Shown here: positions 3,026-31,785 of the stretch, one piece after another | Numbering within the stretch: the stretch's first letter is position 1 | How the letters are laid out: each line of letters starts with the position of its first letter | IMG/VR virus record: IMGVR_UViG_3300034093_000288 | Coordinates: 1-64,000 of that record | DNA: 64,000 nucleotides | Direction: 5' to 3' (one strand) | Source: a virus | Notes under the pieces: model-generated | What the model saw: the letters and a program-made list of their open reading frames with translations, nothing else | Told to the model about the DNA's origin: nothing | The model's database searches: none | Program-made: the position numbers and the translations under genes

Positions 3026-3454
3026 ATGAATGATTTCATGAAGTATTGGCGTATCATACGCTACTACTATACCCAAAAGTATCAGATAAACGAGAGAGAT
3101 CTAGACCTACTGCTGTACCTCTACTCAGAAAAGTACTTTACAAAGAACGACTGCTACCTGTTTTTACAGACCCTGCCTTGGGATAAGAGCAGATTCACAA
3201 AGCTTAGAAAGAAGGGGTTTATAGACATCCACAGCCACGCACATAAGCACCGCTCAACCATTTGGAAGATGACCTTTAAAGGTAAAAAGCTTGTCGCATC
3301 TCTGTACGCCAAGCTTAATGGTGGGACGATATCTGAAAATTATCAGTTTAACCGTATGTTTTTAGATGGCGCGGGCTACGCTCACAAGGTCTACAGAAAT
3401 GTCATCAAGAAGATGAACGAGGAGATTAAATCAGGGAAGTATAGCGACGACTAA
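3026..3454 (+). CDS. Winged-helix-like small protein (142 aa)
   Basis: The sequence INERDLDLLLYLYSEKYFTKND, then DKSRFTKLRKKGFIDI, then a basic segment and TFKGKKLVASLY resembles a MarR-type winged helix: helices, recognition helix, then a wing. It is Tyr/Lys rich and likely binds DNA. It is the only plus-strand gene among minus-strand neighbours, with its own divergent promoter, and it ends 4 bases into groES on the other strand. A regulator of the late/early switch is a reasonable guess, not shown. Confidence 0.6.
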   Translation: MNDFMKYWRIIRYYYTQKYQINERDLDLLLYLYSEKYFTKNDCYLFLQTLPWDKSRFTKLRKKGFIDIHSHAHKHRSTIWKMTFKGKKLVASLYAKLNGGTISENYQFNRMFLDGAGYAHKVYRNVIKKMNEEIKSGKYSDD

Positions 3455-3711
3455 AGAACGATGACAACGTCACGCTCTGTGATAATGGTGAGGTCCTCAT
3501 CATTAATCATCATCGTGTAGCAGTTTGACTTGTCGTAGTAAATTTCATCACCCGCAACGATGGTGCTCACGTCAGTACCAGGCATCACAACGACACCCTT
3601 CTTGTACCTGAACCCCTTTACGTCATCTGCCGAGAGAATGAAGCCCGCATCTGAGCGGACTTCTTCCTCGATAGTCTTAATTACAATGTTTTTACCAATT
3701 ACCTTCTTCAT
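3451..3711 (-). CDS. groES: Phage-encoded GroES-like co-chaperonin
   Basis: An 86-residue protein with the Cpn10 layout: an N-terminal strand (MKKVIGKNIVIKTIEEEVR), a loop region, GVVVMPGTDV, then VAGDEIYYDKSNC and a C-terminal strand ERDVVIVL. The VAGDEIYYDK phrase matches the GD-V-Y-K core. It is shorter than bacterial GroES (about 97). The ATG overlaps the groEL stop (TAATG), so it is translated right after groEL, the reverse of the usual bacterial order. It should cap the phage GroEL to fold capsid or tail proteins. Confidence 0.85.
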   Translation of the reverse strand: MKKVIGKNIVIKTIEEEVRSDAGFILSADDVKGFRYKKGVVVMPGTDVSTIVAGDEIYYDKSNCYTMMINDEDLTIITERDVVIVL

Positions 3712-5321
3712 TATTTAATCTCGAACGAGCGAGCCTCCGTGATAATAGCGTTAGTACTTAAGATTGTGACGGCAACGCTCACTGCGTTTTGTAAAGCGCT
3801 ACGCGTTACCTTCAACGGGTCGATGACACCAAGCTTGATTAGGTCACCCTGCTCCCCCGTCTTGATGTTCACACCATGCCCGTTGTTCTTAAGGACAGGG
3901 TAGTCATTTAAGTCAAGACCGGAGTTTACAAATATCTGCGTGAGTGGTGCCCAAAGAGCCTCCTGGATGATGCGAGCGGCTACCAATACCTCGGCGCTAT
4001 CTCCAACAACAGGAAGGTTCTCCAAAACATTAATGTCATACAGGGCTTTTCCACCACCCGGCAATATTCCTTCCTCCAAGGCGGAGCGAACGGCGCACAC
4101 AGCGTCGTCAATGCGGTCGTAGAGCTCCTTTTGCTCGAGGTCCGTGTTTCCACCTACGTGGATGACACCAATTCCACCCGACAAAGAGGCGATGCGCTCT
4201 AGAATGAAGTCCTTGTCGTTCTTCTTCTGCGCTTGGTCGTGTGCCTTCCACAGCTGATCGATGCGTTCTTGAACGGCATTTGACGTCTCGTCCTCTAAGT
4301 CCTTAACGATGATGGTCTCTTCCTTCTTGACGATGACCTTAGCCGCGTGACCTAGGTCAGAGAACTGAATAAGACTGAGGTCGTCCCCCGTCTTCTCAGA
4401 GTAATAGGTTGCCCCGACACTCAGTGCGATGTCTTGCATCAGCTCGTGCTGCTTGTAACCAAAGCTTGGTGGTTGAATGGCGCATACATTTAAAGAACCC
4501 TTGGCTACGTTTGCTGCTAGAGTCGTAATAAACTGATTTGTGCACGGGGCAATAATTAATAGTCGTTTTTGGGTGTTGGCAATTGGCGCTAACACCTCCT
4601 TAATTTGCAATATGTTTGATATCTCAGCGTCACACACCAAGATGTACACGTCGTCGGCGATGTACTCGTCACGCTCGTGGTTGTTGATGAAGTATGGACT
4701 TAGGTAGCCACGTTGTACGCGGAGTCCCTCTGTAGCCGTAGAGTAGGTCTCAGACGTCTGTGAGTGCTCAACGGTAACGATACCATTCTTACCCACTGCG
4801 TTGTACGTCTCAGCGATGACCTTACCCGTAGAGCTGTCGTTATTGGCTGAGATTGTAGCCACGTCCTCCAACATACCAGGTGTAATCTTCTTTGCGTTCT
4901 TTTTCAATAGCTCAACCACCTCGTTAGAGATGTCAACCATGTTGCGAAGTACCTCGATGTTGTTGTGCTCAGGCTTCAAGTGCTTGAGACCTGCCTCAAT
5001 TAAAGCCTCGGTAAGCACGATAGCCGTAGTTGTGCCGTCACCCGCATTGGTTGCGGTACGCTCAGCGGCCTCCTTCATAATTTTTACTGCCAAGTTTTCG
5101 ACCGGGTCAAACAAGTCAACGGCCTTAGCCACGGTTACACCGTCCTTGGTTACCGTAATGCCGTGCGTGTGGTATGGTGACTCGATTAGTACCGTCTTGC
5201 CTCGTGGACCTAGTGTACTCTTGACGGCCTTAGCCATCTTGTTGACTCCTGAGATGAGCTTCTTGCGGCCCTCTTCCTCAAAGAGTAGTTCTTTTGGTGT
5301 GAATGATTGATTATGTGCCAT
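3711..5321 (-). CDS. groEL: Phage-encoded GroEL (group I chaperonin)
   Basis: A 536-residue chaperonin. Visible signatures are LGPRGKTVLIE, VTKDGVTVAK and the nucleotide-binding GDGTTTA near residue 90. The apical substrate-binding RGYLSPYFIN, the catalytic-Asp region RIDDAVCAVR, EEGILPGGG, and VIDPLKVTRSALQNA near the C-terminus are also present. The Gly-Gly-Met tail of bacterial GroEL is missing; the protein ends ARSFEIK. Promoter box TATTTTTG lies at 5351-5344. It is co-transcribed with groES. Phage chaperonins are known to fold their own structural proteins; that role is inferred here. Confidence 0.96.
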   Translation of the reverse strand: MAHNQSFTPKELLFEEEGRKKLISGVNKMAKAVKSTLGPRGKTVLIESPYHTHGITVTKDGVTVAKAVDLFDPVENLAVKIMKEAAERTATNAGDGTTTAIVLTEALIEAGLKHLKPEHNNIEVLRNMVDISNEVVELLKKNAKKITPGMLEDVATISANNDSSTGKVIAETYNAVGKNGIVTVEHSQTSETYSTATEGLRVQRGYLSPYFINNHERDEYIADDVYILVCDAEISNILQIKEVLAPIANTQKRLLIIAPCTNQFITTLAANVAKGSLNVCAIQPPSFGYKQHELMQDIALSVGATYYSEKTGDDLSLIQFSDLGHAAKVIVKKEETIIVKDLEDETSNAVQERIDQLWKAHDQAQKKNDKDFILERIASLSGGIGVIHVGGNTDLEQKELYDRIDDAVCAVRSALEEGILPGGGKALYDINVLENLPVVGDSAEVLVAARIIQEALWAPLTQIFVNSGLDLNDYPVLKNNGHGVNIKTGEQGDLIKLGVIDPLKVTRSALQNAVSVAVTILSTNAIITEARSFEIK

Positions 5322-5841: not shown

Positions 5842-6110
5842 AGTTTTGTAAAGCAATTTGTACCACTTTTTGGTATATTTTGCAAAGTTTTTATCAGCTT
5901 ATAACCTTATACATGATAGGGTACTAATGTATAGATTGTTGGGTTTTTTATACATAAGTGGTCATATAAGGCACAAATGTCCAGTTTTTTGAGCTATAAA
6001 CGGGACATTATCATTATCTATATTTCACCAAATGTGCCTAATATTAAGCGTTTTTTGCCGTGTTTAAGTAAATAACCCCGACAACAGTATCACAGTAGGT
6101 GCATAAATGC
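5842..6110. other. AT-rich non-coding region with nested dyads
   Basis: No convincing gene is present. A nested inverted repeat spans 5969-6039: AGGCACA (5969-5975) pairs with TGTGCCT (6033-6039), and inside it AATGTCC (5976-5982) pairs with GGACATT (6003-6009). It could be a large cruciform, an operator region, or part of an origin together with the repeats at 6261-6461. Confidence 0.45.
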
Positions 6111-7164: not shown

Positions 7165-7196
7165 TTGGATATGTCAAAAGAATTGTAGTAAATTTG
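7165..7196 (+). promoter_or_regulatory. Main early promoter
   Basis: TTG at 7165-7167, a 21-bp spacer, then TAAATTTG at 7189-7196. This matches the Bacteroidota -33/-7 pattern. The predicted transcript start is near 7203, leaving a leader of about 260 nt before the first early gene. Confidence 0.75.
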
Positions 7197-7202
7197 TAAT
7201 CG

Positions 7203-7462
7203 AAATCAACGGGATAGGCAACCCGCTAACAGGTCACTCCCACCTCGAGGGTATTAATATCGGGACTGCGAGCCAAAGCAGGTGAGGGACGGCTAACGAG
7301 TTTAAAGACTCTGAGCTTACGAAATCGAAAAGATGGCTTACACTACGAGTGGAATAGGGTCGACCAATGACAGCGACCTAGAGTATACGACAGCGCGACG
7401 GGCAGACCCCGATGTTCGAGTCATCGGCGCGCACTAACCAATAACCCCTTAAATTTTATCTT
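7203..7462 (+). ncRNA. Long structured 5' leader of the early transcript
   Basis: Between the early promoter and ATG 7463 there is no long gene but several short hairpins. These include CGGG/CCCG near 7210-7225, GAGT/ACTC near 7299-7312, GGTCG/CGACC near 7359-7380, and the tRNA-half element at 7393-7432. A 34-codon frame (7333-7437, starting MAYTTSGIGS) also exists and ends inside the element's 3' flank, so a leader peptide cannot be excluded. Attenuation or RNA processing is plausible. No known riboswitch was recognised. Confidence 0.45.
7393..7432 (+). ncRNA. tRNA-half (acceptor plus T-arm) element 1
   Basis: GCGCG (7393-7397) pairs with CGCGC (7428-7432). Between them are an 11-nt linker with GG at positions 4-5, then a 6-bp hairpin CCGATG / CATCGG closed by the T-loop TTCGAGT. 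It is followed by ACTAA. The architecture is identical to elements 2-4. It ends 30 bases before ATG 7463. Confidence 0.65.
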
Positions 7463-8110
7463 ATGTCTAATTTACTTTCAATCGAGCAAGCATTCTTGAG
7501 CAATGCAGAAATTCAACAAGCCCTCAACATGACTGAGGTAACCCGCTTACAGCGCTCTATCGATACAGCGCAAAAGAAGAAGTTCAACACCACCTTAGAG
7601 TTGAGCAAGGTCGTAAGCAAATCATACGAATGGTTCAAATCAGACGAGGCACAAGCCAAGTTCACAGCCGAGGGTATCTCATGGACCTCGGAAGACTTTG
7701 CGCTCAAGGTCTTCGGATGGCAAAAATCGTTCTTTCACAAGGTCATCAAGGTGAGCAAGGTCGATACCGAGGTAGTCGAGCGCTTTGATGCTGAGTGCAA
7801 GCGCCTAGAGCGCGAGGGTGAGAAGCCTAAGCGCTCAATCGAGGCCCTACTCAAGTTCGCAAAGGCTGTGGAAGCTAGCGCCAAGAGCGGTGGAGACGGC
7901 GAGGGAGACGGCGAGGGCGATGAGCCACAGGTTGAGACACGTCCACAAACGGCGTTCACCTTGACGTTCAAGGACGGCCACAATCCAAACGTTAGCATCC
8001 GCATCGATGAGAACGGGGTGATGACCACAACTAACGCGGCCATTGACATCAAGCGAGCGCTTGCGTTCTTGGTGTGCAATGAGCAGTACATCGAGTTACT
8101 AAATGCATAG
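7463..8110 (+). CDS. Early hypothetical protein (215 aa)
   Basis: Unrecognised. It has a helical N-terminal half with VTRLQRSIDTAQKKKFN and WTSEDFALKVFGWQKSFFHK, then an acidic Gly-Asp-Glu linker near residues 144-157 (GGDGEGDGEGDE). A compact beta-like C-terminal segment follows (AFTLTFKDGHNPNVSIRI, then GVMTTTNAAIDIKRALAFLV). It is the first gene of the early transcript and is likely made in quantity soon after infection. The helix-rich part plus acidic linker would suit a DNA- or host-protein-binding take-over factor, but that is a guess. Arg codons are mostly CGC, unlike the AGA-rich late genes. Confidence 0.7.
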   Translation: MSNLLSIEQAFLSNAEIQQALNMTEVTRLQRSIDTAQKKKFNTTLELSKVVSKSYEWFKSDEAQAKFTAEGISWTSEDFALKVFGWQKSFFHKVIKVSKVDTEVVERFDAECKRLEREGEKPKRSIEALLKFAKAVEASAKSGGDGEGDGEGDEPQVETRPQTAFTLTFKDGHNPNVSIRIDENGVMTTTNAAIDIKRALAFLVCNEQYIELLNA

Positions 8111-8125
8111 TGTCTTTGAAGACAC
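8110..8125 (+). repeat. 16-bp near-palindrome, copy 2
   Basis: GTGTCTTTGAAGACAC begins on the last base of the TAG stop of the previous gene and lies 5 bases before tRNA-half element 2. Confidence 0.92.
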
Positions 8126-8130
8126 CGCAA

Positions 8131-8170
8131 GCGGGAATGGTTCAAGCGGGGGTTCGACTCCCCCGCCCGC
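8131..8170 (+). ncRNA. tRNA-half element 2
   Basis: GCGGG (8131-8135) pairs with CCCGC (8166-8170). The 11-nt linker AATGGTTCAAG has GG at positions 4-5. The 6-bp hairpin CGGGGG / CCCCCG carries the T-loop TTCGACT. The next bases are AACTAA. It sits between stop 8110 and ATG 8214. Confidence 0.7.
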
Positions 8171-8213
8171 AACTAATCAATAACTTTAATTCAAACCCTT
8201 TAATTTTTACACC

Positions 8214-9104
8214 ATGAGTAATTTAACTTTCAATCAGAACGGCGTTAACTTTGGATTAACTAACGACCAAGAGCGCGGAGAAATCCACAGCTACCACTAC
8301 AAGCCTAGCCCGCTATTCTTGAACAAGACCAAGGGACGCGCTGATGTGGCGGGCCTAAGCCCTAAGCGCTTGAGTCAAAACGTCCGCGTCTTTATGGGCG
8401 ACGTTGAGAGCCGCTTCACCATTGGCTTTGAGGTTGAGAAGAACAGCCTACACCGCAACTCAGTACGTGAGTACGAATTGTTTTGTGGATTCGAGCGCGA
8501 CGGGTCATGTGGATACGAGGCCGTAACACACGTGTTGCCGCTAGTGCCCGCATCTAAGTGGCGCACTAAGGTGTACGACATGATGCACAAGGCCGAGAAG
8601 ATTATCGATGACCAATACAGCCCATCAGACCGCCGCTGTGGTGGACACATCACGATAGCTGTTAATGGCATGGAAGGCGACCAAGTTCGCGAGGCCGTTC
8701 GCAAGTTCAGCGGGTTGATGTACGCAATGTTCCGCCACCGCTTGACTAATCAGTACTGCGAGTACAACAAGCGCATGGAGCAGTTTGATGACTGCCGCCA
8801 CCACCGCAAGTACCAAGTTGCCTTGGTCAAGGGCAACACCTTGGAGTTCCGCTTGCCGTCACGTGTGGAGTCGGTCAAGCAGTTGATGCGCCGCTATGAG
8901 TTGATGTACGAAATGGTAGATGTGGCAGTCAATCGCCCCAACACTAGCTTCAAGGCATGGGTCAACAAGATGACCCCGCTATTGGTAACGATGTACGACG
9001 GCGATGCCGACAGGGTCGAGGCTATCAAGGCTTTGGCTGTTCACTTCCAAACGTACATCAATACGGGTGTGAAAAACCAAGCTATTGTAAGCTTTGTAGG
9101 ATAG
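8214..9104 (+). CDS. Amidoligase-family (COOH-NH2 ligase) protein
   Basis: A 296-residue protein with the hallmarks of the glutamine-synthetase-fold amidoligase family: IGFEVEKNSL near residue 70, ERDGSCGYEAVTHVLPL near 95-111 and RCGGHITIAVNG near 140-150. It also has a YCEYNK segment near 180 and KGNTLEFRLPSRV near 206-218. Family members are predicted to use ATP to join a carboxylate to an amine, making peptide or isopeptide amides. It lies in the same early region as the glutamine amidotransferase/cyclotransferase fusion at 11573-12622. Substrate unknown; a host cell-wall peptide, a host protein or a small metabolite are all possible. Confidence 0.72.
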   Translation: MSNLTFNQNGVNFGLTNDQERGEIHSYHYKPSPLFLNKTKGRADVAGLSPKRLSQNVRVFMGDVESRFTIGFEVEKNSLHRNSVREYELFCGFERDGSCGYEAVTHVLPLVPASKWRTKVYDMMHKAEKIIDDQYSPSDRRCGGHITIAVNGMEGDQVREAVRKFSGLMYAMFRHRLTNQYCEYNKRMEQFDDCRHHRKYQVALVKGNTLEFRLPSRVESVKQLMRRYELMYEMVDVAVNRPNTSFKAWVNKMTPLLVTMYDGDADRVEAIKALAVHFQTYINTGVKNQAIVSFVG

Positions 9105-9145
9105 GGTACATGGTGACACGAGGGGGTTCGACTCCCCCTCTACCC
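9104..9145 (+). ncRNA. tRNA-half element 3
   Basis: GGGTA (9104-9108) pairs with TACCC (9141-9145). The 11-nt linker CATGGTGACAC has GG at positions 4-5. The 7-bp hairpin GAGGGGG / CCCCCTC carries the T-loop TTCGACT. It begins on the last base of the preceding stop codon and is followed by ACAA, then by repeat copy 3. Confidence 0.7.
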
Positions 9146-9151
9146 ACAATG

Positions 9152-9167
9152 GTGTCTTTGAAGACAC
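9152..9167 (+). repeat. 16-bp near-palindrome, copy 3
   Basis: GTGTCTTTGAAGACAC, 6 bases downstream of tRNA-half element 3 and 27 bases before ATG 9195. Confidence 0.92.
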
Positions 9168-9194
9168 TATATTGTTTAACTTAAATTTAATAAC

Positions 9195-9437
9195 ATGACA
9201 AGAGCAGATGTAATTGTAAAGATGTTCCAAGCGCCCGTTCGTAATTGGATAATTGATAACGTGCTAAAACTAAAGCATCCAAAGTGGCTTGAACATGAGC
9301 AAGATGACTTTGGTACACGTAACGGGGTCGTGAAGGCTTATCAAGTATTGGACGAGTCCTTTTGTTGGGCAGACACTAAGGAGGGCCATGACTTTTGGAG
9401 GGATATATGTCACAAACTAGAAAGAAAAAACATATGA
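9195..9437 (+). CDS. Small early protein with TKEGHDFW motif (80 aa)
   Basis: Ends WADTKEGHDFWRDICHKLERKN. The motif W--TKEGH-FW--I--KL recurs in the next gene, and short phage proteins with a similar EGH-FW helix are widespread, with no established function. The gene overlaps the following start by ATGA. Confidence 0.65.
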   Translation: MTRADVIVKMFQAPVRNWIIDNVLKLKHPKWLEHEQDDFGTRNGVVKAYQVLDESFCWADTKEGHDFWRDICHKLERKNI

Positions 9438-9700
9438 TAAGCAGAGCAACACTATTCGACATGAAGCTACCCTACCCGCTAGGCGAGATAGCTAAGTGTG
9501 CGTTCGTACATTCACACTACGAGATGGGCTACAGCCCCGAGCGCATATACGAGATGCTACATGAAGATGACTTCGAGGCACACCTTTCAATCCCAATGTG
9601 GTACATTATAATCGCTCATATTGAGTGGGCATCCACCAAGGAGGGTCACGCATTTTGGCAAAACATACACGATAAACTAAAACAAATAGAAGAACAATGA
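9434..9700 (+). CDS. Small early protein, paralogue of the preceding gene (88 aa)
   Basis: Start chosen at ATG 9434, which overlaps the previous stop (ATGA); a TTG start at 9395 would overlap the upstream gene by 43 bases. The C-terminus WASTKEGHAFWQNIHDKLK mirrors the TKEGHDFW motif of the 9195-9437 product, so the two are probably a tandem duplication that has diverged outside the motif. Function unknown. Confidence 0.65.
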   Translation: MISRATLFDMKLPYPLGEIAKCAFVHSHYEMGYSPERIYEMLHEDDFEAHLSIPMWYIIIAHIEWASTKEGHAFWQNIHDKLKQIEEQ

Positions 9701-10152
9701 GAAACACACAGCTAATGGCATTTGAAGCTTGGATAAGCGATGGAAATGCAATGATAATCGACAACGCATGGAGCACACAAGATGCGTGTTGGGCAAACCG
9801 AATTGAGACCAAGGGGGAGTTATTCAAGTACTACCTCAAGGAGTTCTTCGGCATCAACCCCGCTCAGTACCTCTTCACCGAGGTACTCAAGTACATGGAC
9901 GTCAAGAGTGAGCGCGAGTACGTGCTTAAGTACGACCATGCATCCGAGTGGATTGTTGACTTGTTCATGACCATTCGCTCGGCTACCTTCGGGCGCTTTG
10001 CCAACTACGAGGGCCTTGAGTTCTCGGCTAACGGCATGGTGTTTAGACTTGAGAAGGAGTTCGGTCGCTTCGGCAAGTACGGGCGCTTACACATGACCCT
10101 CGAGGATGGTGTAGAACTTGATGACTTCCTCTACATGGTAGGAGGATGTTGA
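9697..10152 (+). CDS. Early hypothetical protein (151 aa)
   Basis: Coupled by ATGA to the previous gene. Phrases include AFEAWISDGNAMIIDNAW, then YLKEFFGINPAQYLFTEVLK and RLEKEFGRFGKYGRLHMT. It is a mixed alpha/beta soluble protein with no recognised family. It ends the first early block; a new promoter lies 30 bases downstream. Confidence 0.6.
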   Translation: MRNTQLMAFEAWISDGNAMIIDNAWSTQDACWANRIETKGELFKYYLKEFFGINPAQYLFTEVLKYMDVKSEREYVLKYDHASEWIVDLFMTIRSATFGRFANYEGLEFSANGMVFRLEKEFGRFGKYGRLHMTLEDGVELDDFLYMVGGC

Positions 10153-10180
10153 TAGTGAGCGAAAATAATCCCATAAACAT

Positions 10181-10211
10181 TTTGCATTGTAAATAAATTG
10201 TAATACCTTTG
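10181..10211 (+). promoter_or_regulatory. Early promoter in front of the lipoprotein gene
   Basis: TTTG at 10181-10184, a 19-bp spacer, then TACCTTTG at 10204-10211: a full -33/-7 match. The predicted start near 10218 is about 14 bases before ATG 10232. Confidence 0.75.
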
Positions 10212-10231
10212 TAATCCAATAACACAAGAAC

Positions 10232-10414
10232 ATGAGAACAGCAGTTAAATTATCAGTAATCTACGGCGCTATATGCGCTTCAGTCGCATTGGCAATGACG
10301 TCATGCGCTAGTCAAAAACAATACGTTAGATGCGATGCGTACAAGACGCACTATAAGCCCCTCAAGGCTGAGAAGCACCATGGTCACCACATCAAATGCG
10401 ACGCTTATAACTAG
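10232..10414 (+). CDS. Small early lipoprotein (60 aa)
   Basis: MRTAVKLSVIYGAICASVAL leads to the lipobox AMTSC, giving a mature lipoprotein of about 37 residues. The mature part is Lys/His/Tyr rich and contains two similar Cys-containing phrases, YVRCDAY and HIKCDAY, which could bind metal or form a disulfide. A surface lipoprotein made early from its own promoter fits superinfection exclusion or envelope modification. That role is inferred from known phage lipoproteins, not shown here. Confidence 0.7.
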   Translation: MRTAVKLSVIYGAICASVALAMTSCASQKQYVRCDAYKTHYKPLKAEKHHGHHIKCDAYN

Positions 10415-10417
10415 GCC

Positions 10418-10735
10418 ATGAGAGTAGACTTCGCAGTACTAGACAGCTTGGTTCAAAGGGAGTTTGAGCCACAGCAGACGATGGATGTCTTAGCGAATGA
10501 GCCCATGGTAGTGATGTCATGGGGCGCTCGAAAGTTCGCTCAGTACAAGAACAAGGCGCTCTTCTTTAGAGTGAGTGGCCGCTTGCACAGGGGCATTGTG
10601 TGCATCACCCTAGCTTGGGATGACACCTACACAATCACATTGCTCAACTTAAAGTTCGAGGTAAATCAAACGCGAACGGACGTATACTTCGACGAGTTGG
10701 TCAACAACATCGACCACATGGTCGAGACAAGGTAG
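10418..10735 (+). CDS. Early hypothetical protein (105 aa)
   Basis: Starts three bases after the lipoprotein stop. Phrases such as MSWGARKFAQYKNKALFFRV and HRGIVCITLAWDDTYTITLL suggest a small beta-sheet fold. No family recognised. The stop codon runs into repeat copy 4. Confidence 0.6.
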   Translation: MRVDFAVLDSLVQREFEPQQTMDVLANEPMVVMSWGARKFAQYKNKALFFRVSGRLHRGIVCITLAWDDTYTITLLNLKFEVNQTRTDVYFDELVNNIDHMVETR

Positions 10736-10750
10736 TGTCTTTGAAGACAC
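10735..10750 (+). repeat. 16-bp near-palindrome, copy 4
   Basis: GTGTCTTTGAAGACAC starts on the last base of a TAG stop, exactly as copy 2 does, and lies 3 bases before tRNA-half element 4. Confidence 0.92.
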
Positions 10751-10753
10751 CAA

Positions 10754-10793
10754 GGTACGATGGTCTTAAGGGAGGTTCGATTCCTCCCGTACC
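10754..10793 (+). ncRNA. tRNA-half element 4
   Basis: GGTAC (10754-10758) pairs with GTACC (10789-10793). The 11-nt linker GATGGTCTTAA has GG at positions 4-5. The 6-bp hairpin GGGAGG / CCTCCC carries the T-loop TTCGATT. It is followed by ACTAA and ends 23 bases before ATG 10817. Confidence 0.7.
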
Positions 10794-22098: not shown

Positions 22099-25000
22099 TT
22101 ATTTTCTTAAGGACTCTCTTAGCTTTTGCTTTACCTCTCTGATTCTTTCTTTGTAATCTTCCTTAGCTTCTCTTCTCATTTCTGTAGCTTCTTGTGAAGA
22201 TATCTCTCTACCCTTTCTCATTTCACCTATTTGCTTTATGCTAGACTTGAAGCTTCTTCCCGCACCTTCTATTAAGCCTGCTGCGCTTTTCGATGTTACC
22301 TTTTCAGACCTATCTAAGTCTCCGTAGATTGCATCCATTGTAATCTTTCTAACGTCTTTGTATAAAGGTATGTATCCAAGTGAACCGGCAATCTCTAGTG
22401 GAACTCTAAGCGTTCGCTCTTTCTTTTGACGAGCAATTGCCTCAGCAGTTTTCTTATCATCCTCGGTAGCTTTCTTACCCAAGAACCTTAAAGTCTTAAC
22501 AGCAGGAGACGCGGAGCCTAGTGTATTGATGTAGATGTCCATGATGTCTACTCCTTTACCCGTATCTCCCTTAGGCTTCTCAGTAGGTACAATTGAGAAT
22601 TGAAGTGCATCTTCATACATATCGTACTCTCCATCTCTTAATGACTCTAGATATTCTTCATTCATCTTCTCTATACCATAGTTTAATGGGACACGTGCAG
22701 CATTACCTAAGTTTCTTCCAAACATAAGAGTTGTCATTGTGGAAGCTACAGCCTGACCAACTCTCTGCATTACAGTCTTGTCAGTTTCTTCCTCTTCCTC
22801 CTCATCATCTCTGTACCCGAGTAGGCCTGCAACCATGTCAATGAATCCATTAGTCAACGTCCTTGTTGCTAATTGGTATACCATCATACGAGTTGTTACT
22901 GCTGCAATCAAAGCAATACCTTCTTTCTTTTCAATCATGTTACCCTTCATCAACATATTGATTCCGGAACGCGCTGTCATGTACTCAAACAATAAGAACT
23001 TAGCCATATAAGAGTTAAACTTCTTATACCAAGCTGCCAACTCATTATCGTCAGGCTTGACCGTATTTCTTAATATGCCTAATGCATTATTATCAGATGA
23101 GCCTGCCTTTACAGTTACATCATCCGCTTGGGTTTTAGCTGCATCGATGGCGTCCTTGTTATCTGCCATGTACTGCTCGTCATTGTTAGCAATCTTCTCA
23201 AAGTCTACATCCTTACCTGATGCTTTCTTGAATGCTCTTGAGAACTCTCCGAACCAAAGTGGACGAATCATTACCATATCGGGAGTGGACATCAACAAGT
23301 CAGCAGTAGCCTCGGTTGTGTTCTTAACTCTCTTTAATGTTTGATTGTAAACTGTCTGTGCTGCATTTGCAACGACACCCTTAGCCTGACTACCTCTAAT
23401 ACCCGCAGTTTGATTAAATATCTCAGACGCTGCCAATTGGCTAGAAACAGTGCTTGAAGAGTAGATACGATTTGTTTGTACACTACCCACGTTCTTAAGT
23501 ACATTGAATGCGTCAGGTGACATTAATAACTTTCCGTATGACGCACCAACAGCCCAACTCCTAGAGCCCTTCATGACTATATAAATCATATTCGATATAG
23601 CCTCAGATCCCATGCGAGGTAATCCTGCAAGCACAGCTCTGTACCCCTGCCTTGATATTTCATTAAATATACTTCTTGCTTTTCCCTCACTCATAAATTC
23701 GTTACCTACCGCTGTATCTACAATCTGTGTAAATGCAGCGTCAAGTGCGGTTACTAATGGTAACTTATCTTCAGCAATTTCTTTATTTTCAACAGCCTTT
23801 TCAAGTTCTCTCATTGTAAATCGTCCTTGACGAACAGCAGGAGTTAAGTGGTAGTCCATCAACACTGAGCTCGCACTTCTTTTTACTGAAGAGAATGGGT
23901 CAAAGTTAATAGCACTCACCTTTCCTGTACGCTCAATCAATGTCTTAGCACGGGTAGATGTGGTACGGCTGTTACCAAATACATTTCTCAATTCGTTGAT
24001 AGAATCCAATTGGTCTGCTCTTGTGTCACCATTGATTACACCCAATGAAATATAATTTGCAATAGGAGTAATTCTACTTCCACGAATAATAGCTGCCGTA
24101 TACTCAGCCTTCTCGGACATCATGTCGTTGATGGTTCGTATCTCACCCAATATCTTTTTCTCAGTAGGATTGAATGAATCGAATAGCTTATCCATGTCAA
24201 TACCCATAACCTCGTTACCGTCTTTGTCAAGGATTGGGTCACCATTCTCATCCTTCATTACGTCCTGATACTCGTTGATGATTTCCTCAAACATCTTAAC
24301 ATCATCCTTAGTATAGTACGTTCTTTCCGCATTGGTCTCCTTAATTGTCTTCTTTAAGAACTCAATGGCAGGATTTACCTGACGACTATCAGGGTTTGAC
24401 TCAAACTCGTTTTGAATCAGCCACGTCATCATCTTAAACTTAGACATGGTTATTTTGTTTGGCTTTCTACCAAATGCCTCAGCAAGAGACTTCTCCATCT
24501 TTGTAATTCTATCAGAAATAACTCTTGTATCTGCTGAGAAAGAAGCCAATGCCGTAGCTAATGGCTTGAAGATATTCTCATAGAATGGACGCTCTCTAAA
24601 GTTTCCAAATACCTCATCGATAAATGCTGATGAGTTTCCTTCAAGGATGTACTTGTAGAAGTTACCATTCTTACGGAACAATGCCTTCTTAGCACCTGAC
24701 TTCAATCGCTCACCAAGCATAACCTTGACACGTTGAATTGGGCTAATCAAGTTGTTTCTCTTCACGATACCATCCATCTTCTCAACTAAAATCTGAGCTC
24801 GGTTGGTAATGAATCCGTTATTGATGTTGTCTACAATCTTTTGTAGGTCTTTAAGTTCTTGAGGAGTTAAGAAGTTTAATACGTCTGTCTTAATAAACCC
24901 TGCCAACTTGTTAGCTAGGTTTCTTTCGTCTCTTGAAGGTAGCGTAGATGCATCAATGGTTTCGTTCTTAAGACTGTCAATCATGTCGTTGCGCTCATCC

Positions 25001-28000
25001 TGTAGCTCTTGCTCACTCTTCTTAGTTCTTTCAGTAGGAGCAATCATACTGCGGTACTTCTTCATTACGGACATCTCGTACTCGTTAATGACTCCGTCCT
25101 CAAGCATTTTGTTAATTGTCTCGGTGTACTGAAGCTTACCGTTCTCCTCAACCTTGTCCGGGTAGCTCTCTAGTCGCTCCATTAGGTCAGCTGCCAATCC
25201 TGATTCTACATCAATAGCCTCGTTAACTTCCTGTACCTGTTGAATCAATTCAGAAATCTCAGGTAGCGTAAGCTCTGTTTGTCTCTGTCCAATAGTATCA
25301 ATAATTGATTTGTATGTATCAAAAACTGAGATAGGCACAAACGTAGGCTTAACAGCCAACATACTTTGTAGTAATGGAACTAGGTCGTTAGCAATACCAA
25401 GCTTGCTCTTGATGTTTCTCTTTGCTGCAGGAAGAAGCTTGTTGATAGTGGAGATAGAGTCCACGTACTCTGCGTTCTTAAACACGTTCTCAGCAAACTG
25501 AAGGAATCGGTCTACTGCAACCGAGTTGCTTAGGTTTAGTTTGTTTACCTTTTCTAATAAAGCCTGAGCTTGCTTAGCCGTGATGCTACCTTTATCTTGC
25601 ATAGCCTTTAGCTTAGCAGTAAGTACAGCTCTCTTTGTCTTCATGTCAGCTCTAACCTTCTTTCTTGCAGCAGCAGCGTACTCCTTAACGACTGTATTGA
25701 TGCTGTCAAGGAACTCGTTAAGTGCATCTACAGGAGCCTGTGTTGTCTCAGGTTCTACCGTAAGCGCTTCATTTATCTGTGCGGCTGTGTAGCCACGTTT
25801 CTTTAACGCCTCTTTAATTGCGGCGTCAGATATTCCCTTAGCTCTACCAATCTCAACGATGTTATTAACAATGGTTTGTTTACTCTTACGAGCCTTGGCT
25901 GCTGTCTCTGCGAGACGCGCATCAAACTTACCACTAACTCTTTCTCCGGAGAATAGGTCTGCAAGACCAATGTTAATGAACTCATCAAGTGTGAGGTCTT
26001 TAATCTTGTCTTTAGCTATCTTTTTTGAACGTACTAAGTTTTCTTTAATGTACTTAAACATTGCATTCATCCAAGACTTGAACTTGGCGCGCTGAGCAGC
26101 GTTTATGATTGTATCACCCTTAACGGCTAACAATTCTACCAATGCCTCCTCTAAAGCTATATCTCTATCTCCATACTCCTTAAGAGCTTTTTTATATTCC
26201 TTAGTTCCATCAACTAACTCAAGCCCTTTAGCGAGTAGCATTTTTCCTTTCGATCCTGCTGCTGCTGAGCGTAGGTAGTCTATCCAAATGTGACCAAATT
26301 CGTGAATAGGTGTACGTAGTGAATCAAACTGTGGATTTAAAAAAATACGACCTTCTTTAGTAACACCGTAGATAATCTCTCCGTTCTTTTCACGAGTTCT
26401 TATACCCTCTTGGTTTGTAAATGAAAGCCACTCCTCAGGTGTATTTGATACCGATACCTCAGGAAATGCAAATCGAAGTTTACCAATGAGCATATCCATA
26501 TCAGTAATTGCACCAAACTTAGCCTTAGCTCCTCTGAACGCTGAGTCCATGAAGAATGCGCCGCCTGTCTGGCCTGCTACTGCATCAGCATTAGGATAGT
26601 TACCCTTCTTATCTTTTTTAAATACACGTGCAGCCTTAGACCTAAATTCAGGGAATACGTCAACACCCTGCTTAGGGTTTGATATAAACGATATAAGGCG
26701 CCCCTTAGGCCCGTACCCATAGTTATTATGTGTTGACTTAGCGACTCCACCATTTAGTACGTCTATACCCATTACCCCAACTACGTCACCCATCTTAGTA
26801 TTCATCATTGATGGGTCGCCAATCTGTTGGTATAGGTAGTCTGATGTGAATAGTTCGTTTCTCGCATTCTCAACTCCATTGAGTAATGCTTGAATAGGCT
26901 TAAGTGTATTTTTTTCTATTCCTTCATTTGAGAAAAATGCTTTATATAAATAAGCGCGAATTGGCAAAGAGAATATATTAGTTTCTCCCTCTGCTCTTTT
27001 TTTAGACTGTTCTACAATTACCTCAAATAGACCATCTAAAGTTTCGATGTTATTTTCCTTAATGTAATTTGAAAGCATAAAAGGTACAATCTTTTCTACC
27101 TTTTCATTTACTTGTTCAACTACATCTTCTATTGTTCTATCTCTTCCCTCTTTCTTTTTACTTATAGAATTAAGAAAAGTTGTCGCTGCTTTTCTTTTAC
27201 CTTCTCCTGTAGATTCGTTGTTTATTATATCTTCAAGATATTTCTTAACACCTTCTATTGTATCAATCTCTCCATTATCAAGTTGCTCAGATAACTCTGT
27301 ATACCAAATTGATGCAGCGTTACCCTCAGCTTTTTTATTTAAACTTTCTAATAAAGAATTAAGCGCAGCCTTTCTATTTTCTAATGGGAGACTTTTAATG
27401 TATGGAAGTACGTATCTAAATACGGCCTCGTTAGAGTTAACAGCTGTATTACCCATACGCATCACGGCCATAGGAATATGACCATTAGGTATTTTACCAT
27501 CAGCCCAAAGTCTGTCAAATAGTTCCTTGTTGGCTTTATATAATTTTACAGCTTCATCATACTGCTTCTGAGCACCATCCTTGGTTACACCTGCCCAAGC
27601 AAGTTCCATGTTTCGGCCAAACGTATTGAATCCAAGACCACCGTCTACAACCATTACGTTGCCCATCGCGTCCTTAATCTCTCCGGATGATAGTATGTCA
27701 GACATAGCCATAATCATTGGTATGCCATCGAAGTCTTCAATCTTACGTAGAAGTTGGTCCTTACTCTTAAGACCTAAGAACTTAAGCACTTTGCTAATAA
27801 CGCCCTCAGGTTGCTTAGAGTCCTCAGCAGGGTTAATCTCTACCTCACCACTTACAGTCGGCTCCTCAAACTCTTGCTCTTCAGCAGCCATTTGATTCAT
27901 CTTCTTCTCAATAGCAGATACCTCTTTTTCTTTTAATGGAGCTTCTTCTTCCTCTGTTCTTTTTCTAAAACGATTAAGTGCTCTCGGGTTCGCTTTCTTA

Positions 28001-31000
28001 GCTTCAAGTTGAGAAACCTTTCTTTTTAATGCTATTCTCTCATCTTCAATTTTATCAGCAAGCTGTATCCCAAGAGGTCTGTTTCCATTTCTATATGCGC
28101 GAGTTCTTTCATTCTCAAGCTCAGCCATTCTTCTATTCGCAAGATTTTTCTCACGTTTAATCTCTGCATCAACCTCAGCAATAAACTCTTCTTTAACTTG
28201 CTTTGCAGTTTTCTTTTTCTTTGCAGGTGCAGGTTGTGCAGCAGGTGCTGCAGCCGTTTGAGTAGGTGTAGTAGCGGCTTGTGTCGGTGTCTTTGAAGAC
28301 ACTCCTCTACCTCTTCTTGATGGTGGCGGAGGCACAACTACCTCTTCTACCTCAGCCTCAACTTCAGGAGCTACCTCCTCTTCAAATGCAAATCCTTCCT
28401 CAGCTAAGATGGTCTCGAACTCATCAAGCTCTTGTTGAACCTCAGGCGCAATCTCCTCTACCTCTTCAACTACAGGGGCTTGTTGTACATCAGTTTGTAC
28501 AGTTTCTTTTGTTTGTTTAGTAGGAGTTGGTTTTTGTTTTATTATTGATTTATCAAGTACTACATAGCTAATATCATTATCGCCAAAGAAAGAATCAATT
28601 AATTTAATTCCACTATATCCTTTCTCTTTTGCTTTCTTTAAAAGAAAATCTTGTTCTTTTCCGCTAGTAAATGTAGAGCTCTCAGCTCTTTGTCTATATT
28701 TTTCAATTAGTTTTTCTTCGGTTAATCTACCTAAAGCATCTCTACTTAATTCAGAATTTATTTCCTTTTTATATAACTGTTTTATGTCTTCATCTGAAAA
28801 ATTATTTTTTGCAAACTCACTTTTATTTTCTTGAGTTGTTAAATCTAAAAATTTAGAAGTGTCAAAATTTGCTTCAGTTACATTAGATTTTTCTCCGCCA
28901 TATTGTTCTGCAATATTAGGGTTCTTAGAAAAAAATATAAACTCTCCTTTTGTGGCTGTTAAATCATCAAATTTTTTACCTCTACCTGTATAAAATTTTT
29001 CTTCCTCAACTATTTCTTCTTGCTCGACTGCTTGGCCACCTTCTTCGGTAACTTGCTCAGTTGTTGTTTCGGGTGTTCTTTCCGCCATTTCTCCGCTAAC
29101 TCCGGTTTCTGGCTGTACAGGAACTTCACTTGTTGTTTGCTCTTGAACGGCATTTTCTTCTCCTATTTGTTCTAAACGACTATTAATCTCGGCAATGCGC
29201 GCTTTCTGAGGCTTGACGAGGCTCGGGTCTTTCCCTTCTACTTCTCTCTCTATTCCATCTCGCTCAATCATTAACTCTAACGATTCTGCTTTTGCTTCAG
29301 ATGTTAGGTTGTTAGGCATTGAGCGAACTTTACCTTGAATTTTATTGAATGACTCAACAATAGAATTAGCCTCTTCCTTTGACATTTTACCTGTAAGCAA
29401 ATCTGCTTTTAGGCTATTTACTAAAGCTGAGTTAATTCCCTCTATCTTGGTAGCATTAATTAATGCTTCTAACTCTTCTTGTTTGTATACGGCATTTAAA
29501 CCTACTTTAAGCGCTTGTGGTGACGATTGAGCAATTGACATTACTCCACCACCGATAGCTCCTAAGTAACCTTCGTATGCGGCATTTGATAGCGCTTCCT
29601 GAAGTCCTTTATTTTTTGAGAAGTCTTTCTCTCTATACGTATCATAAACCTCTTCGATACCAACTTGAGAAAGTGATTGAGTAGCCTCTGTTAATGCTTC
29701 AGCTGCGGCGCCAATTCCTGCCTTAACGCCAATCTCTGAAAACACACTTCCAACGCTTGCATTTATAGCAGTTCTAATCTCAGCTTCTGTTGCCTCCTTA
29801 GATAATCCAAGGAAAGCTCTCTTCATTATATTGTTTGTTAGGTTTCTACCAAATGCTGTTTTTGTTAGTGCCATGTCGACACCAAAGTTCTCAAGTACAG
29901 ATGATAGGATACCATATCCTGCAGATAGCAATACCTTATCAGTTTCAGGTATCTTTTCTATTTCACCTGTTTCTTTATTTTTAAACTGAGCGTTATCTAA
30001 TTGGTCCTTCATCTCGTAATAAGACATACCATAGAAACCTGCATATCTTGCTGCAGTGCCTAATCCTACAAGAGCTCCTGAAGATGCCATTACACCTAAT
30101 GATTCTGCCAAGCTAAACATAGCCTTTGAAAAGTCTCCTCGTTTTTCTGACTCAACGTATTGAGTTGATGTGTCACCACCTGTAATAGCCTTAACCAATT
30201 CGTCTTGGTCTTCCTTGGACATATCTCCAAAGCTAAGTAGTCTAGGAATAGATGTAGCACCCTCAACAAACTTATATGCCATACCGCCACCAAATGAACC
30301 TCTTGATTCCTCAATGATGTAGTTCATGCCAATTGACTTATCAATTGCTCTTGATGCAGTGGATACGGATTTTAAATCAGCGGCTACTTTTTTGGCGTCT
30401 GCAGCCAATGATGCGTTAGACTCTTCAACAATGGCATCGTACTCCTCCATTGTCATTTCACCTGTTTTAACTTTTTCAGCTAAGGTGTTTATTCTAGCCT
30501 GCTCTTCTTTTTGTTTTTTATCTAAATCAGCAGCTGACTTTTGTACATTGTTATAGAAGTCACCAACTATCTTGATGTCTCTATCGTCTCTACGAATAGA
30601 TGCGTATGCTTGCTTAGGGTCAATTGACTTATCAATACGAACCATCTCGTACACATCCTTAAACTGCTCAGCTTTTGCTTTAACATACTCACCCTCTGCC
30701 TTTTTAAGCGGGGCCTGGTATTTTTGTGATATTGCCTGTTCTTCTTTTTTAGCAACAGGCGTTTGCTTTACCAATGCCATTGGGTCTTGAGGGGCTAATG
30801 GATTCTCTAAGAACTTTTGAGTTCTATCCATCAATCCTTCAGCAGCTAGTTTATTTGTAGCCACATCAATCTCCTTATCGCGTTGAGACTTAATAGAATC
30901 AATTTTTTGAGACGCCTGAGCTACTTCTTTTTTTGAATTGGCTCGTATGAATGTTTTAAGACCTTCAGCTTCCTTCTTGTCATCATCCCAATTCCAATTG

Positions 31001-31785
31001 TCCAATTGAATTTCCATGGTAGCACCTGTTGGAGCTACTACACTTATTCGGTCAGACATACCACCTTTAGCAGTAAACTCGAATCCCGGGAATGTATTGC
31101 CTAATCTTTCAGCAACAGCATCATCGCTAGAAAGTCGAAGAGATAACTCATCCTGACTCACAAGGCTTCCTGTAACAACTTGATTTAATCTTTGCTCTAA
31201 ATCAGAATCGCGTTTAGCCTGATTTGCAACCTGTGTTTTTTGGGCTTCAGCCATAGGCTTAACAGTCTTGTTAAACTGTCTATTCAACGCACCAATTGAA
31301 CCCTCGTTAGTAACGGTAGTCCATTGAGTCTTTCCGGGCTGACGTCGTTGCCAAGTACCATTATCTACACGGTACTCATTCTTTTCCTTTCCGGGATATC
31401 CTACAAATACGTCAGATGGTCTTGCTATTTCTTTTTTAGGCTTTGTTCTATCCTCGCCTAAGCCACCTGTATAGAAGTCATCCTTTTTGGTAGAAGAAGC
31501 CGAAGTAGGTTGACCCAATTTGGAAGCCGATACGGTAGGTTCTTTTTTTTTTACAGGCTCTTGTTGCTCAACGGTTTCTACTTTAGGCTGTTGTCTAGTA
31601 GAGCCACCTGAATACTTTGTGTAAAAATCATCTTCAGACTTTGTGTAAAGACCATCTCTAGAAACTACATCGTAAACTTTTTTACGGTAAGCTCCATCAT
31701 TCCATTTAGTCTTAAATTCATCAAATGATTTGGTATAATACCCTTCTCTTGAGAGTACGTCATAAAGTTTTTGCAATTCATTCAT
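22099..31785 (-). CDS. Giant polyvalent ejection protein: ART-like and metallopeptidase motifs (3228 aa)
   Basis: Residues 7-28 and 37-58 are a tandem repeat (LYDVLSREGYYTKSFDEF / VYDVVSRDGLYTKSEDDF). Hydrophobic, membrane-active-looking segments occur near 560-760. Residues about 925-1060 (FYTGRGKKFDDL, GEFIFFSKNPNIAEQYGG, ISYVVLDKSI) resemble the ADP-ribosyltransferase domain of polyvalent proteins. A Pro/Ala linker near 1160-1190 carries repeat copy 7. At about 1828, PIHEFGHIWIDYLR is a zinc metallopeptidase HExxH motif, with a downstream EEALVELLA helix. The end is a charged coiled coil. It is the third of three ejection-type genes, analogous in position and size to T7 gp16, and is probably delivered into the host. 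Confidence 0.75.
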   Translation of the reverse strand: MNELQKLYDVLSREGYYTKSFDEFKTKWNDGAYRKKVYDVVSRDGLYTKSEDDFYTKYSGGSTRQQPKVETVEQQEPVKKKEPTVSASKLGQPTSASSTKKDDFYTGGLGEDRTKPKKEIARPSDVFVGYPGKEKNEYRVDNGTWQRRQPGKTQWTTVTNEGSIGALNRQFNKTVKPMAEAQKTQVANQAKRDSDLEQRLNQVVTGSLVSQDELSLRLSSDDAVAERLGNTFPGFEFTAKGGMSDRISVVAPTGATMEIQLDNWNWDDDKKEAEGLKTFIRANSKKEVAQASQKIDSIKSQRDKEIDVATNKLAAEGLMDRTQKFLENPLAPQDPMALVKQTPVAKKEEQAISQKYQAPLKKAEGEYVKAKAEQFKDVYEMVRIDKSIDPKQAYASIRRDDRDIKIVGDFYNNVQKSAADLDKKQKEEQARINTLAEKVKTGEMTMEEYDAIVEESNASLAADAKKVAADLKSVSTASRAIDKSIGMNYIIEESRGSFGGGMAYKFVEGATSIPRLLSFGDMSKEDQDELVKAITGGDTSTQYVESEKRGDFSKAMFSLAESLGVMASSGALVGLGTAARYAGFYGMSYYEMKDQLDNAQFKNKETGEIEKIPETDKVLLSAGYGILSSVLENFGVDMALTKTAFGRNLTNNIMKRAFLGLSKEATEAEIRTAINASVGSVFSEIGVKAGIGAAAEALTEATQSLSQVGIEEVYDTYREKDFSKNKGLQEALSNAAYEGYLGAIGGGVMSIAQSSPQALKVGLNAVYKQEELEALINATKIEGINSALVNSLKADLLTGKMSKEEANSIVESFNKIQGKVRSMPNNLTSEAKAESLELMIERDGIEREVEGKDPSLVKPQKARIAEINSRLEQIGEENAVQEQTTSEVPVQPETGVSGEMAERTPETTTEQVTEEGGQAVEQEEIVEEEKFYTGRGKKFDDLTATKGEFIFFSKNPNIAEQYGGEKSNVTEANFDTSKFLDLTTQENKSEFAKNNFSDEDIKQLYKKEINSELSRDALGRLTEEKLIEKYRQRAESSTFTSGKEQDFLLKKAKEKGYSGIKLIDSFFGDNDISYVVLDKSIIKQKPTPTKQTKETVQTDVQQAPVVEEVEEIAPEVQQELDEFETILAEEGFAFEEEVAPEVEAEVEEVVVPPPPSRRGRGVSSKTPTQAATTPTQTAAAPAAQPAPAKKKKTAKQVKEEFIAEVDAEIKREKNLANRRMAELENERTRAYRNGNRPLGIQLADKIEDERIALKRKVSQLEAKKANPRALNRFRKRTEEEEAPLKEKEVSAIEKKMNQMAAEEQEFEEPTVSGEVEINPAEDSKQPEGVISKVLKFLGLKSKDQLLRKIEDFDGIPMIMAMSDILSSGEIKDAMGNVMVVDGGLGFNTFGRNMELAWAGVTKDGAQKQYDEAVKLYKANKELFDRLWADGKIPNGHIPMAVMRMGNTAVNSNEAVFRYVLPYIKSLPLENRKAALNSLLESLNKKAEGNAASIWYTELSEQLDNGEIDTIEGVKKYLEDIINNESTGEGKRKAATTFLNSISKKKEGRDRTIEDVVEQVNEKVEKIVPFMLSNYIKENNIETLDGLFEVIVEQSKKRAEGETNIFSLPIRAYLYKAFFSNEGIEKNTLKPIQALLNGVENARNELFTSDYLYQQIGDPSMMNTKMGDVVGVMGIDVLNGGVAKSTHNNYGYGPKGRLISFISNPKQGVDVFPEFRSKAARVFKKDKKGNYPNADAVAGQTGGAFFMDSAFRGAKAKFGAITDMDMLIGKLRFAFPEVSVSNTPEEWLSFTNQEGIRTREKNGEIIYGVTKEGRIFLNPQFDSLRTPIHEFGHIWIDYLRSAAAGSKGKMLLAKGLELVDGTKEYKKALKEYGDRDIALEEALVELLAVKGDTIINAAQRAKFKSWMNAMFKYIKENLVRSKKIAKDKIKDLTLDEFINIGLADLFSGERVSGKFDARLAETAAKARKSKQTIVNNIVEIGRAKGISDAAIKEALKKRGYTAAQINEALTVEPETTQAPVDALNEFLDSINTVVKEYAAAARKKVRADMKTKRAVLTAKLKAMQDKGSITAKQAQALLEKVNKLNLSNSVAVDRFLQFAENVFKNAEYVDSISTINKLLPAAKRNIKSKLGIANDLVPLLQSMLAVKPTFVPISVFDTYKSIIDTIGQRQTELTLPEISELIQQVQEVNEAIDVESGLAADLMERLESYPDKVEENGKLQYTETINKMLEDGVINEYEMSVMKKYRSMIAPTERTKKSEQELQDERNDMIDSLKNETIDASTLPSRDERNLANKLAGFIKTDVLNFLTPQELKDLQKIVDNINNGFITNRAQILVEKMDGIVKRNNLISPIQRVKVMLGERLKSGAKKALFRKNGNFYKYILEGNSSAFIDEVFGNFRERPFYENIFKPLATALASFSADTRVISDRITKMEKSLAEAFGRKPNKITMSKFKMMTWLIQNEFESNPDSRQVNPAIEFLKKTIKETNAERTYYTKDDVKMFEEIINEYQDVMKDENGDPILDKDGNEVMGIDMDKLFDSFNPTEKKILGEIRTINDMMSEKAEYTAAIIRGSRITPIANYISLGVINGDTRADQLDSINELRNVFGNSRTTSTRAKTLIERTGKVSAINFDPFSSVKRSASSVLMDYHLTPAVRQGRFTMRELEKAVENKEIAEDKLPLVTALDAAFTQIVDTAVGNEFMSEGKARSIFNEISRQGYRAVLAGLPRMGSEAISNMIYIVMKGSRSWAVGASYGKLLMSPDAFNVLKNVGSVQTNRIYSSSTVSSQLAASEIFNQTAGIRGSQAKGVVANAAQTVYNQTLKRVKNTTEATADLLMSTPDMVMIRPLWFGEFSRAFKKASGKDVDFEKIANNDEQYMADNKDAIDAAKTQADDVTVKAGSSDNNALGILRNTVKPDDNELAAWYKKFNSYMAKFLLFEYMTARSGINMLMKGNMIEKKEGIALIAAVTTRMMVYQLATRTLTNGFIDMVAGLLGYRDDEEEEEETDKTVMQRVGQAVASTMTTLMFGRNLGNAARVPLNYGIEKMNEEYLESLRDGEYDMYEDALQFSIVPTEKPKGDTGKGVDIMDIYINTLGSASPAVKTLRFLGKKATEDDKKTAEAIARQKKERTLRVPLEIAGSLGYIPLYKDVRKITMDAIYGDLDRSEKVTSKSAAGLIEGAGRSFKSSIKQIGEMRKGREISSQEATEMRREAKEDYKERIREVKQKLRESLRK
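28287..28302 (+). repeat. 16-bp near-palindrome, copy 7, inside the giant ejection gene
   Basis: GTGTCTTTGAAGACAC on the plus strand; the gene on the minus strand reads it as part of GVSSKTP in a low-complexity Pro/Ala linker. Confidence 0.92.

Follow-up and report, generated by a model that had tools for sequence, protein, structure and literature searches.

A tRNA-like RNA element between phage genes shares its sites with self-cleaving ribozymes and may be a cut site for host RNase P

The plus strand of virus record IMGVR_UViG_3300034093_000288 (69,453 bases, of which we analyzed positions 1 to 64,000, hereafter the window) carries four copies of a 40- to 42-nucleotide (nt) tRNA-like element between early genes. 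We found that the same RNA family occurs in dozens of unrelated phage contigs, that its fold is maintained by covariation, that it lies between genes on the coding strand, and that at orthologous sites in sister phages its place is taken by self-cleaving ribozymes. This replacement is the main functional evidence and was missed by a first-pass annotation of the window. We consider it probable that the element is a minimal tRNA mimic that serves as a cut site in polycistronic early mRNA, with host RNase P acting at its 5' end.

The first-pass annotation had described four plus-strand copies, each with a 5-bp outer stem, an 11-nt linker, and a 6- to 7-bp inner stem closed by the loop TTCGANT. 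All four were found at the claimed positions with this architecture, and their stems pair perfectly while differing in sequence. Bit scores below are for our covariance model of the element, R1.

7393 to 7432, plus strand: copy 1, 32.6 bits; atypical, without the mini D-hairpin; acceptor-like stem 7393-7397/7428-7432, linker 7398-7408, T-stem 7409-7414/7422-7427, T-loop 7415-7421.
8131 to 8170, plus strand: copy 2, 60.6 bits; acceptor-like stem 8131-8135/8166-8170, mini D-hairpin 8136-8142 (A-A-UGG-U-U), T-stem 8147-8152/8160-8165, T-loop 8153-8159.
9104 to 9145, plus strand: copy 3, 40.9 bits, with hammerheads at the orthologous site in 43 relatives; stem 9104-9108/9141-9145, mini D-hairpin 9109-9115 (C-A-UGG-U-G), T-stem 9120-9126/9134-9140, T-loop 9127-9133.
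10754 to 10793, plus strand: copy 4, 57.9 bits; stem 10754-10758/10789-10793, mini D-hairpin 10759-10765 (G-A-UGG-U-C), T-stem 10770-10775/10783-10788, T-loop 10776-10782.

The tails that follow the stack in copies 1 to 4 are ACTAA, AACTAA, ACAA, and ACTAA. No fifth copy was found on either strand of the window or in the complete record. The same descriptor is expected 0.0067 times per dinucleotide-shuffled window (300 shuffles), against the four observed. RNAfold recovered both stems in every copy; copies 2 to 4 were more stable than nearly all shuffles, and copy 1 was unremarkable.

We collected relatives of the element in two ways. A homologue search with P0002, the protein encoded between copies 2 and 3, found 67 IMG/VR loci, and a scan for the stems plus the T-loop, in which GG was not required, returned more elements. 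Almost all of these are on the gene strand; their stem sequences differ, and ATGG is again present in the linker. For this protein-found set, no linker or tail condition was imposed. The pattern-found set came from an IMG/VR scan with ATGGT-N9-12-GTTCGANTC-N11-13-CTAA, which imposed GTTCGANTC, ATGGT, and CTAA and left the stems and the outer linker pair (x-x', below) free; among the matches listed, most of those that are not tRNA genes have perfect stems. Four weak R1 matches (L037:3214, L045:3264, L049:3096, and L049:3267) resemble genuine tRNA genes, with tRNA D-arm sequence, and were rejected as elements and left out of the final counts.

Across the family, the consensus is a 6-bp acceptor stem, a 2-bp mini D-arm, and a 6-bp T-arm with the loop UUCGANU, followed by N73-C-U-A-A; the consensus stack is 12 bp, and the anticodon arm is missing. 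The mini D-arm is a 2-bp hairpin with a UGG triloop (x-A-UGG-U-x'). Here the first-pass annotation was wrong, as it held that the D arm was gone: the linker is not unpaired in copies 2 to 4 but forms the D-like hairpin, and this covaries strongly across the family. The x and x' positions form Watson-Crick pairs in 113 of 118 elements, through AT, GC, CG, and TA, where 38% would be expected if they were independent, and the inner A-U is replaced by U-A in nine elements. Scans of IMG/VR with the paired linkers ATGGT and TTGGA returned at least 89 and at least 74 stem-bearing elements, respectively, while complete scans with mismatched linkers returned 11 (TTGGT) and 6 (ATGGA), and TACCA returned 1. 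An unstructured linker is rejected by these pairing counts and by these scans of paired versus mismatched patterns.

The stems behave in the same way. In an alignment of 97 elements with 14 pairs (a 6 + 2 + 6 bp model), there were 517 double-change cells, compared with 146.5 in shuffles, and the covariation score was 0.887, compared with 0.186; none of 500 shuffles scored as high. The first-pass annotation had named a lack of further examples or of covariation as grounds for abandoning its proposal; both relatives and covariation were found. The geometry is also that of tRNA. The stacked length is 12 to 13 bp in 99 of the 118 elements, and the distance from the T-loop to C74 is 13 nt, as in tRNA, in 67 of the 86 that bear CTAA. 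The elements have a T-arm with G53-C61, the loop UUCRANY, and a 12-bp acceptor/T stack, so the family can be described as an acceptor/T-arm stack, a T-loop in which R57 is G, a tiny GG-bearing D-hairpin, and N73-C-Y-A. Some variants have long linkers of 20 to 29 nt (L019 5931-5990; L129 950-1008, reverse strand; L095 1712-1768; L174 12174-12225) and seem to bear an extra hairpin after the mini D-arm that resembles a variable or anticodon arm.

We then compared the elements with known RNA families. ARAGORN reported no tRNA in the window, a cloverleaf with an anticodon arm being absent, and no Rfam 15 family, the tRNA model included, scored above its gathering threshold at the elements. Homology to a tRNA gene was likewise not found: there is no tRNA-family match at the elements, and the stems vary freely. 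For transfer-messenger RNA (tmRNA), ARAGORN found none in the window and the Rfam model matched the T-arm only, at 16.7 bits against a gathering threshold of 47. No Rfam ribozyme matched in the window (hammerhead or twister core), and our hammerhead model, R2, found none in records G000, G009, or G010. An intrinsic terminator, a GC-rich hairpin with a U-run, does not describe the elements, most of which have C-U-A-A as the 3' flank. One could still suppose that the elements arose by decay of tRNA genes or fold as they do by chance, as their T-arm agrees with the tRNA consensus. That idea has a negligible chance of being right: it is already refuted by covariation, with pairing kept through different bases in 97 sequences, and it fits neither the four copies in the window against the chance level given above nor the silence of ARAGORN and Rfam.

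The key evidence on function came from the sister phages. Ribozymes in phages are already known. Five of the 67 loci (L004, L008, L012, L017, and L028) had been chosen as element-free controls, and all have hammerheads at the same site; these are of type III and lie directly 3' of the P0002 homologue (for example, L008 5895-5960, L012 5901-5965, and L028 5928-5992). Across the 67 related loci, the hammerhead model gave 109 matches, every one on the same strand as the genes; the window, L001, and L002, which carry the element, gave none. The gap after the P0002 homologue holds a hammerhead in 43 of these loci, an element in 7, and both in none, and the gap before it holds a hammerhead in 6, an element in 6, and again both in none. 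After the genes of a 372-amino-acid (aa) family we counted 21 hammerheads and 2 elements, and after the P0001 family 5 and 6. When the tRNA-like label is mapped onto a tree of P0002 homologues, it has to change five times, and well-supported branches force at least two of these changes. About 100 of 104 hammerheads have an intact core. Other ribozymes take part as well: a twister-P3 occupies the site before P0002 in L030 (4892-4969), and element-bearing operons contain twister-P1 (L103 1247-1308 and L125 9225-9286) and hammerhead I (L099 1376-1425, L126 444-493, and L158 3559-3608). In the sister phages (L001 to L067), dense arrays of type III hammerheads occupy the gaps between early genes. 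In L039, the Rfam DUF805b RNA is found at 5920-5952, after the P0002 homologue and thus at the hammerhead/element site, and again at 1963-1995. Its site in L039 hints that DUF805b RNA may be a processing or self-cleaving RNA.

Both kinds of RNA are placed with respect to genes. Elements lie stop-to-start between genes on the coding strand. A start codon follows within 0 to 60 nt in 56% of elements, compared with 13% of random positions, and 17% lie wholly inside an open reading frame, compared with 59%; the distance to the next start codon is 15 to 50 nt. The first-pass annotation had placed the elements just before early genes, which is true of the window copies, but the tighter anchor in the family is the stop codon of the preceding gene. 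This stop has two dominant positions, either 7 to 8 nt before the first base of the element (+1) or exactly at -2, -1, and +1, as in 23 elements (for example, L077 2964, reverse strand, and window 9104). Copy 3 overlaps the stop TAG at 9102-9104 of gene 8214-9104, the G of which is its first stem base. A stem-loop often stands at these junctions. It ends 3 to 8 nt before the hammerhead cut in 90 of 104 cases and 0 to 8 nt before +1 of the element in 12 of 25, against a background of about 4% (124 of 3,000 random positions and 17 of 397 positions after other stop codons). The genes and stem-loops around the window copies are as follows.

7463 to 8110, plus strand: P0001, early gene, 215 aa, between copies 1 and 2; no family match.
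8214 to 9104, plus strand: P0002, early gene, 296 aa, between copies 2 and 3; weak amidoligase-like PHROG match.
8110 to 8125, plus strand: palindromic stem-loop GTGTCTTTGAAGACAC, between the stop TAG at 8108-8110 and copy 2, placed like the stem-loops that precede hammerhead cuts.
9152 to 9167, plus strand: palindromic stem-loop GTGTCTTTGAAGACAC, after copy 3.
10735 to 10750, plus strand: palindromic stem-loop GTGTCTTTGAAGACAC, between the stop TAG at 10733-10735 and copy 4.

Given the fold, the placement, and the ribozyme exchange at the same junctions, these junctions would appear to need a cut. The elements have the features of an RNase P substrate (the T-loop, the 12-bp distance from it to the 5' end, and 3' N73-C74), and RNase P cuts acceptor/T-arm model substrates at the normal site, for which a T-loop-to-5'-end distance of 12 bp is needed (PMC11143913). 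In our model, the RNA folds into a continuous 12-bp acceptor/T-arm stack under a canonical T-loop cap, and a tRNA elbow probably arises as the two G's of UGG in the D-like hairpin dock on the T-loop. Host RNase P would read the elbow, measure 12 bp, and cut on the 5' side of the stem, just past the upstream stop codon and, where present, just past the stem-loop. The upstream message would then end in a stem-loop that may guard its 3' end, and the downstream message would begin with the folded element ahead of its start codon. A further cut, by host RNase Z after N73, may free an RNA of about 41 nt. An RNase P or RNase Z site was one of the options raised by the first-pass annotation, and it is the one favored by the evidence, with the tRNA-like fold and the conserved GG upheld and the loss of the D arm withdrawn.

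RNase Z also recognizes a T-arm plus a 12-bp stack. It is quite unlikely, however, that RNase Z alone, or mainly, makes the cut on the 3' side and that CCA addition stabilizes the new 3' end. N73-C-Y-A does follow the stack at tRNA spacing and CCA is present in L186, but most copies have CUAA rather than CCA, and the hammerhead cuts and stem-loops align with the element's 5' rather than its 3' side. We favor RNase P because its 5'-side cut aligns with the hammerhead cut and with the stem-loop. Could the element instead remain uncut and simply mark mRNA ends, as 5'-end protection, a start-codon shield, or a roadblock to decay enzymes? Its stable fold and its position 15 to 50 nt ahead of start codons would suit such a role. 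We regard this as unlikely, since a plain hairpin would suffice, without any need for UGG, a strict T-loop, or a length of 12 bp, and since the element swaps with ribozymes of known cleaving activity.

The same exchange bears on the other options of the first-pass annotation, mimics that engage host tRNA enzymes and substrates for a CCA addition that would stabilize mRNA ends. Both have weaker support, as the elements keep to sites between cistrons that cleavage ribozymes also occupy. A decoy that binds host tRNA enzymes, for instance to blunt tRNA-directed defenses, would account for the faithful T-arm and discriminator geometry and for the high copy number in some phages (14 R1 hits at E ≤ 0.01 in G001), but it would need neither the fixed stop-to-start placement nor same-site exchange with ribozymes, and we think it very unlikely.

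Several observations weigh against an RNase P cut site. Encoded CCA is rare, and most copies have CUAA. Pairing of -1 with 73, as in A(-1):U73, is possible in 55 of 118 elements, giving 13 bp, and might displace the RNase P cut or make it less efficient. Most elements have A at -1, and Escherichia coli RNase P prefers U there. Neither copy 1 nor copy 3 is preceded by the stem-loop, and many unrelated phages lack it. In the 23 elements that overlap the stop codon, the predicted cut at +1 (UA|A) would leave UA, as in animal mitochondrial mRNAs, and would remove the upstream stop unless A is re-added as in mitochondria. Copy 1 fits least well: its linker reads ACGGGCA where the others have xATGGTx', it lacks the D-hairpin, and it has no upstream gene at all and closes a noncoding leader.

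We lean, by a little, toward a broader interpretation as well, in which many phages have a swappable message-cutting slot after early genes that any RNA-cutting device can fill: hammerhead I or III, twister P1 or P3, perhaps DUF805b RNA, and the tRNA mimic that borrows RNase P. If so, the mimic would be the smallest natural class of RNase P substrate with a D/T elbow, and about one-fifth of its copies would be cut inside the stop codon, as happens in mitochondria.

The flanking proteins are mostly unrelated among themselves, and 95 are singletons. Thus, we rejected the idea that the element is tied to one gene family. Nor is it restricted to early genes, because a copy in L088 (near 5830, reverse strand) follows a Mu-like gpT major head gene at a distance of 10 nt. 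Some elements are nearly identical in different phages. The many different small genes that are flanked, together with these near-identical copies, might suggest cassettes that act at the DNA level, either for gene shuffling or as attachment sites. PeSL cassettes of T4-type phages consist of a promoter plus terminator-like stem-loops; like the elements, they are repeated stem-loop units between small early genes, but they lack the tRNA fold. We consider a DNA-level role highly improbable, given RNA-type covariation with G-U pairs, the T-loop, the gene-strand bias, and the exchange with self-cleaving ribozymes; moreover, too little stem sequence is shared for homologous recombination.

Copies can form arrays, with seven in L129. 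The largest array is in L186 (2942-6965, record G001), where copies end in CCA or CAA directly after the stack and not in CUAA; some of them could fold alternatively as a long acceptor-linker hairpin, and no relative of L186 was found in the phage collection. Among named Bacteroidota phages that have a primase homologue, no clear element was found; the only matches, in Maribacter phage Panino, were weak (E 0.001 to 0.006). In bacterial genomes, the element was found in 1 of 395 and 1 of 299, a weak negative, as few candidates were scored per genome.

Known systems offer partial parallels. The elements are tRNA-like folds at gene ends in an operon whose co-transcription we infer from gene order, and in this they resemble the t-elements of plant mitochondria, tRNA-like sequences at gene ends with no role in translation, where RNase P and RNase Z define the ends of mRNAs by cleavage (PMC11658184). 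Unlike t-elements, the phage element has no anticodon arm, has a 2-bp D-hairpin and many unrelated stems, and swaps with ribozymes. In animal mitochondria, intergenic tRNA folds also split polycistronic RNA, and some stops are cut to UA, but these are true tRNAs (PMC4394434), whereas the phage elements are noncoding mimics. Both mitochondrial systems thus use tRNAs or sequences related to tRNA genes. Hammerhead arrays cut bacterial polycistronic RNAs, and in a halovirus the hammerhead cut site is within three nucleotides of a mapped early transcript end (PMC3088659). Hammerheads and the element are alike in occupying the same intercistronic sites of orthologous operons, with a cut that separates messages, but hammerheads cut themselves, and the phage element, which has no ribozyme core, would need a host enzyme. 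The RNase P model substrates AT1 and pMini (PMC11143913) likewise join an acceptor stem, T-stem, and T-loop and omit the anticodon arm; they are synthetic, whereas the phage elements are natural and add the UGG mini D-arm. HDV-like theta ribozymes of Bacteroidota and Bacillota phages also couple ribozymes and tRNA folds in phage RNA processing, but their proposed role is to trim 3' trailers off real tRNAs (PMC10879173), while here a tRNA-like fold replaces the ribozyme. No report of an anticodon-armless phage tRNA mimic between genes, or of its exchange with ribozymes, was found in the open-licence literature.

Some other features of the window were recorded. The box upstream of the leader and copy 1 was found by eye and is also present in L001.

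7189 to 7196, plus strand: promoter-like box TAAATTTG, which we take to be a Bacteroidota-type -7 promoter (TAnnTTTG).

By eye, promoter-like boxes were seen at only a few places. Between the box and copy 1 lies the noncoding leader (7200-7392), in which the blocks ATATCGGAACTGCGAGCCAAAGCAGG and ATGACAGC are conserved in L002 and which has no Rfam match. The palindrome GTGTCTTNNAAGACAC occurs at window positions 7023, 8110, 9152, 10735, 12576, 20138, 28287, 43709, and 50801, and the 67 related loci contain 187 copies. It often has a stop codon on one side and a cleavage element on the other, and it is sometimes intragenic, encoding VFEDT at 12576 and 20138. On the minus strand, genes for phage GroES-like (Cpn10) and GroEL-like (Cpn60) chaperonins are adjacent (3451-5321), and two giant proteins of 3,228 aa (22099-31785) and 1,823 aa (58454-63925) have no Pfam match.

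We class the element as probable tRNA-type mRNA punctuation; the structured RNA family to which it belongs is unnamed, and neither current tRNA finders nor Rfam report it. If our reading is right, the exchange would be natural evidence that phage ribozyme arrays separate messages. The element would also offer a ready test of what RNase P requires, a compact tool for cutting multigene RNAs, and a clue to DUF805b RNA. Phages would then have evolved mitochondria-like punctuation, in which a tRNA mimic of about 41 nt and self-cleaving ribozymes share the job at gene junctions.

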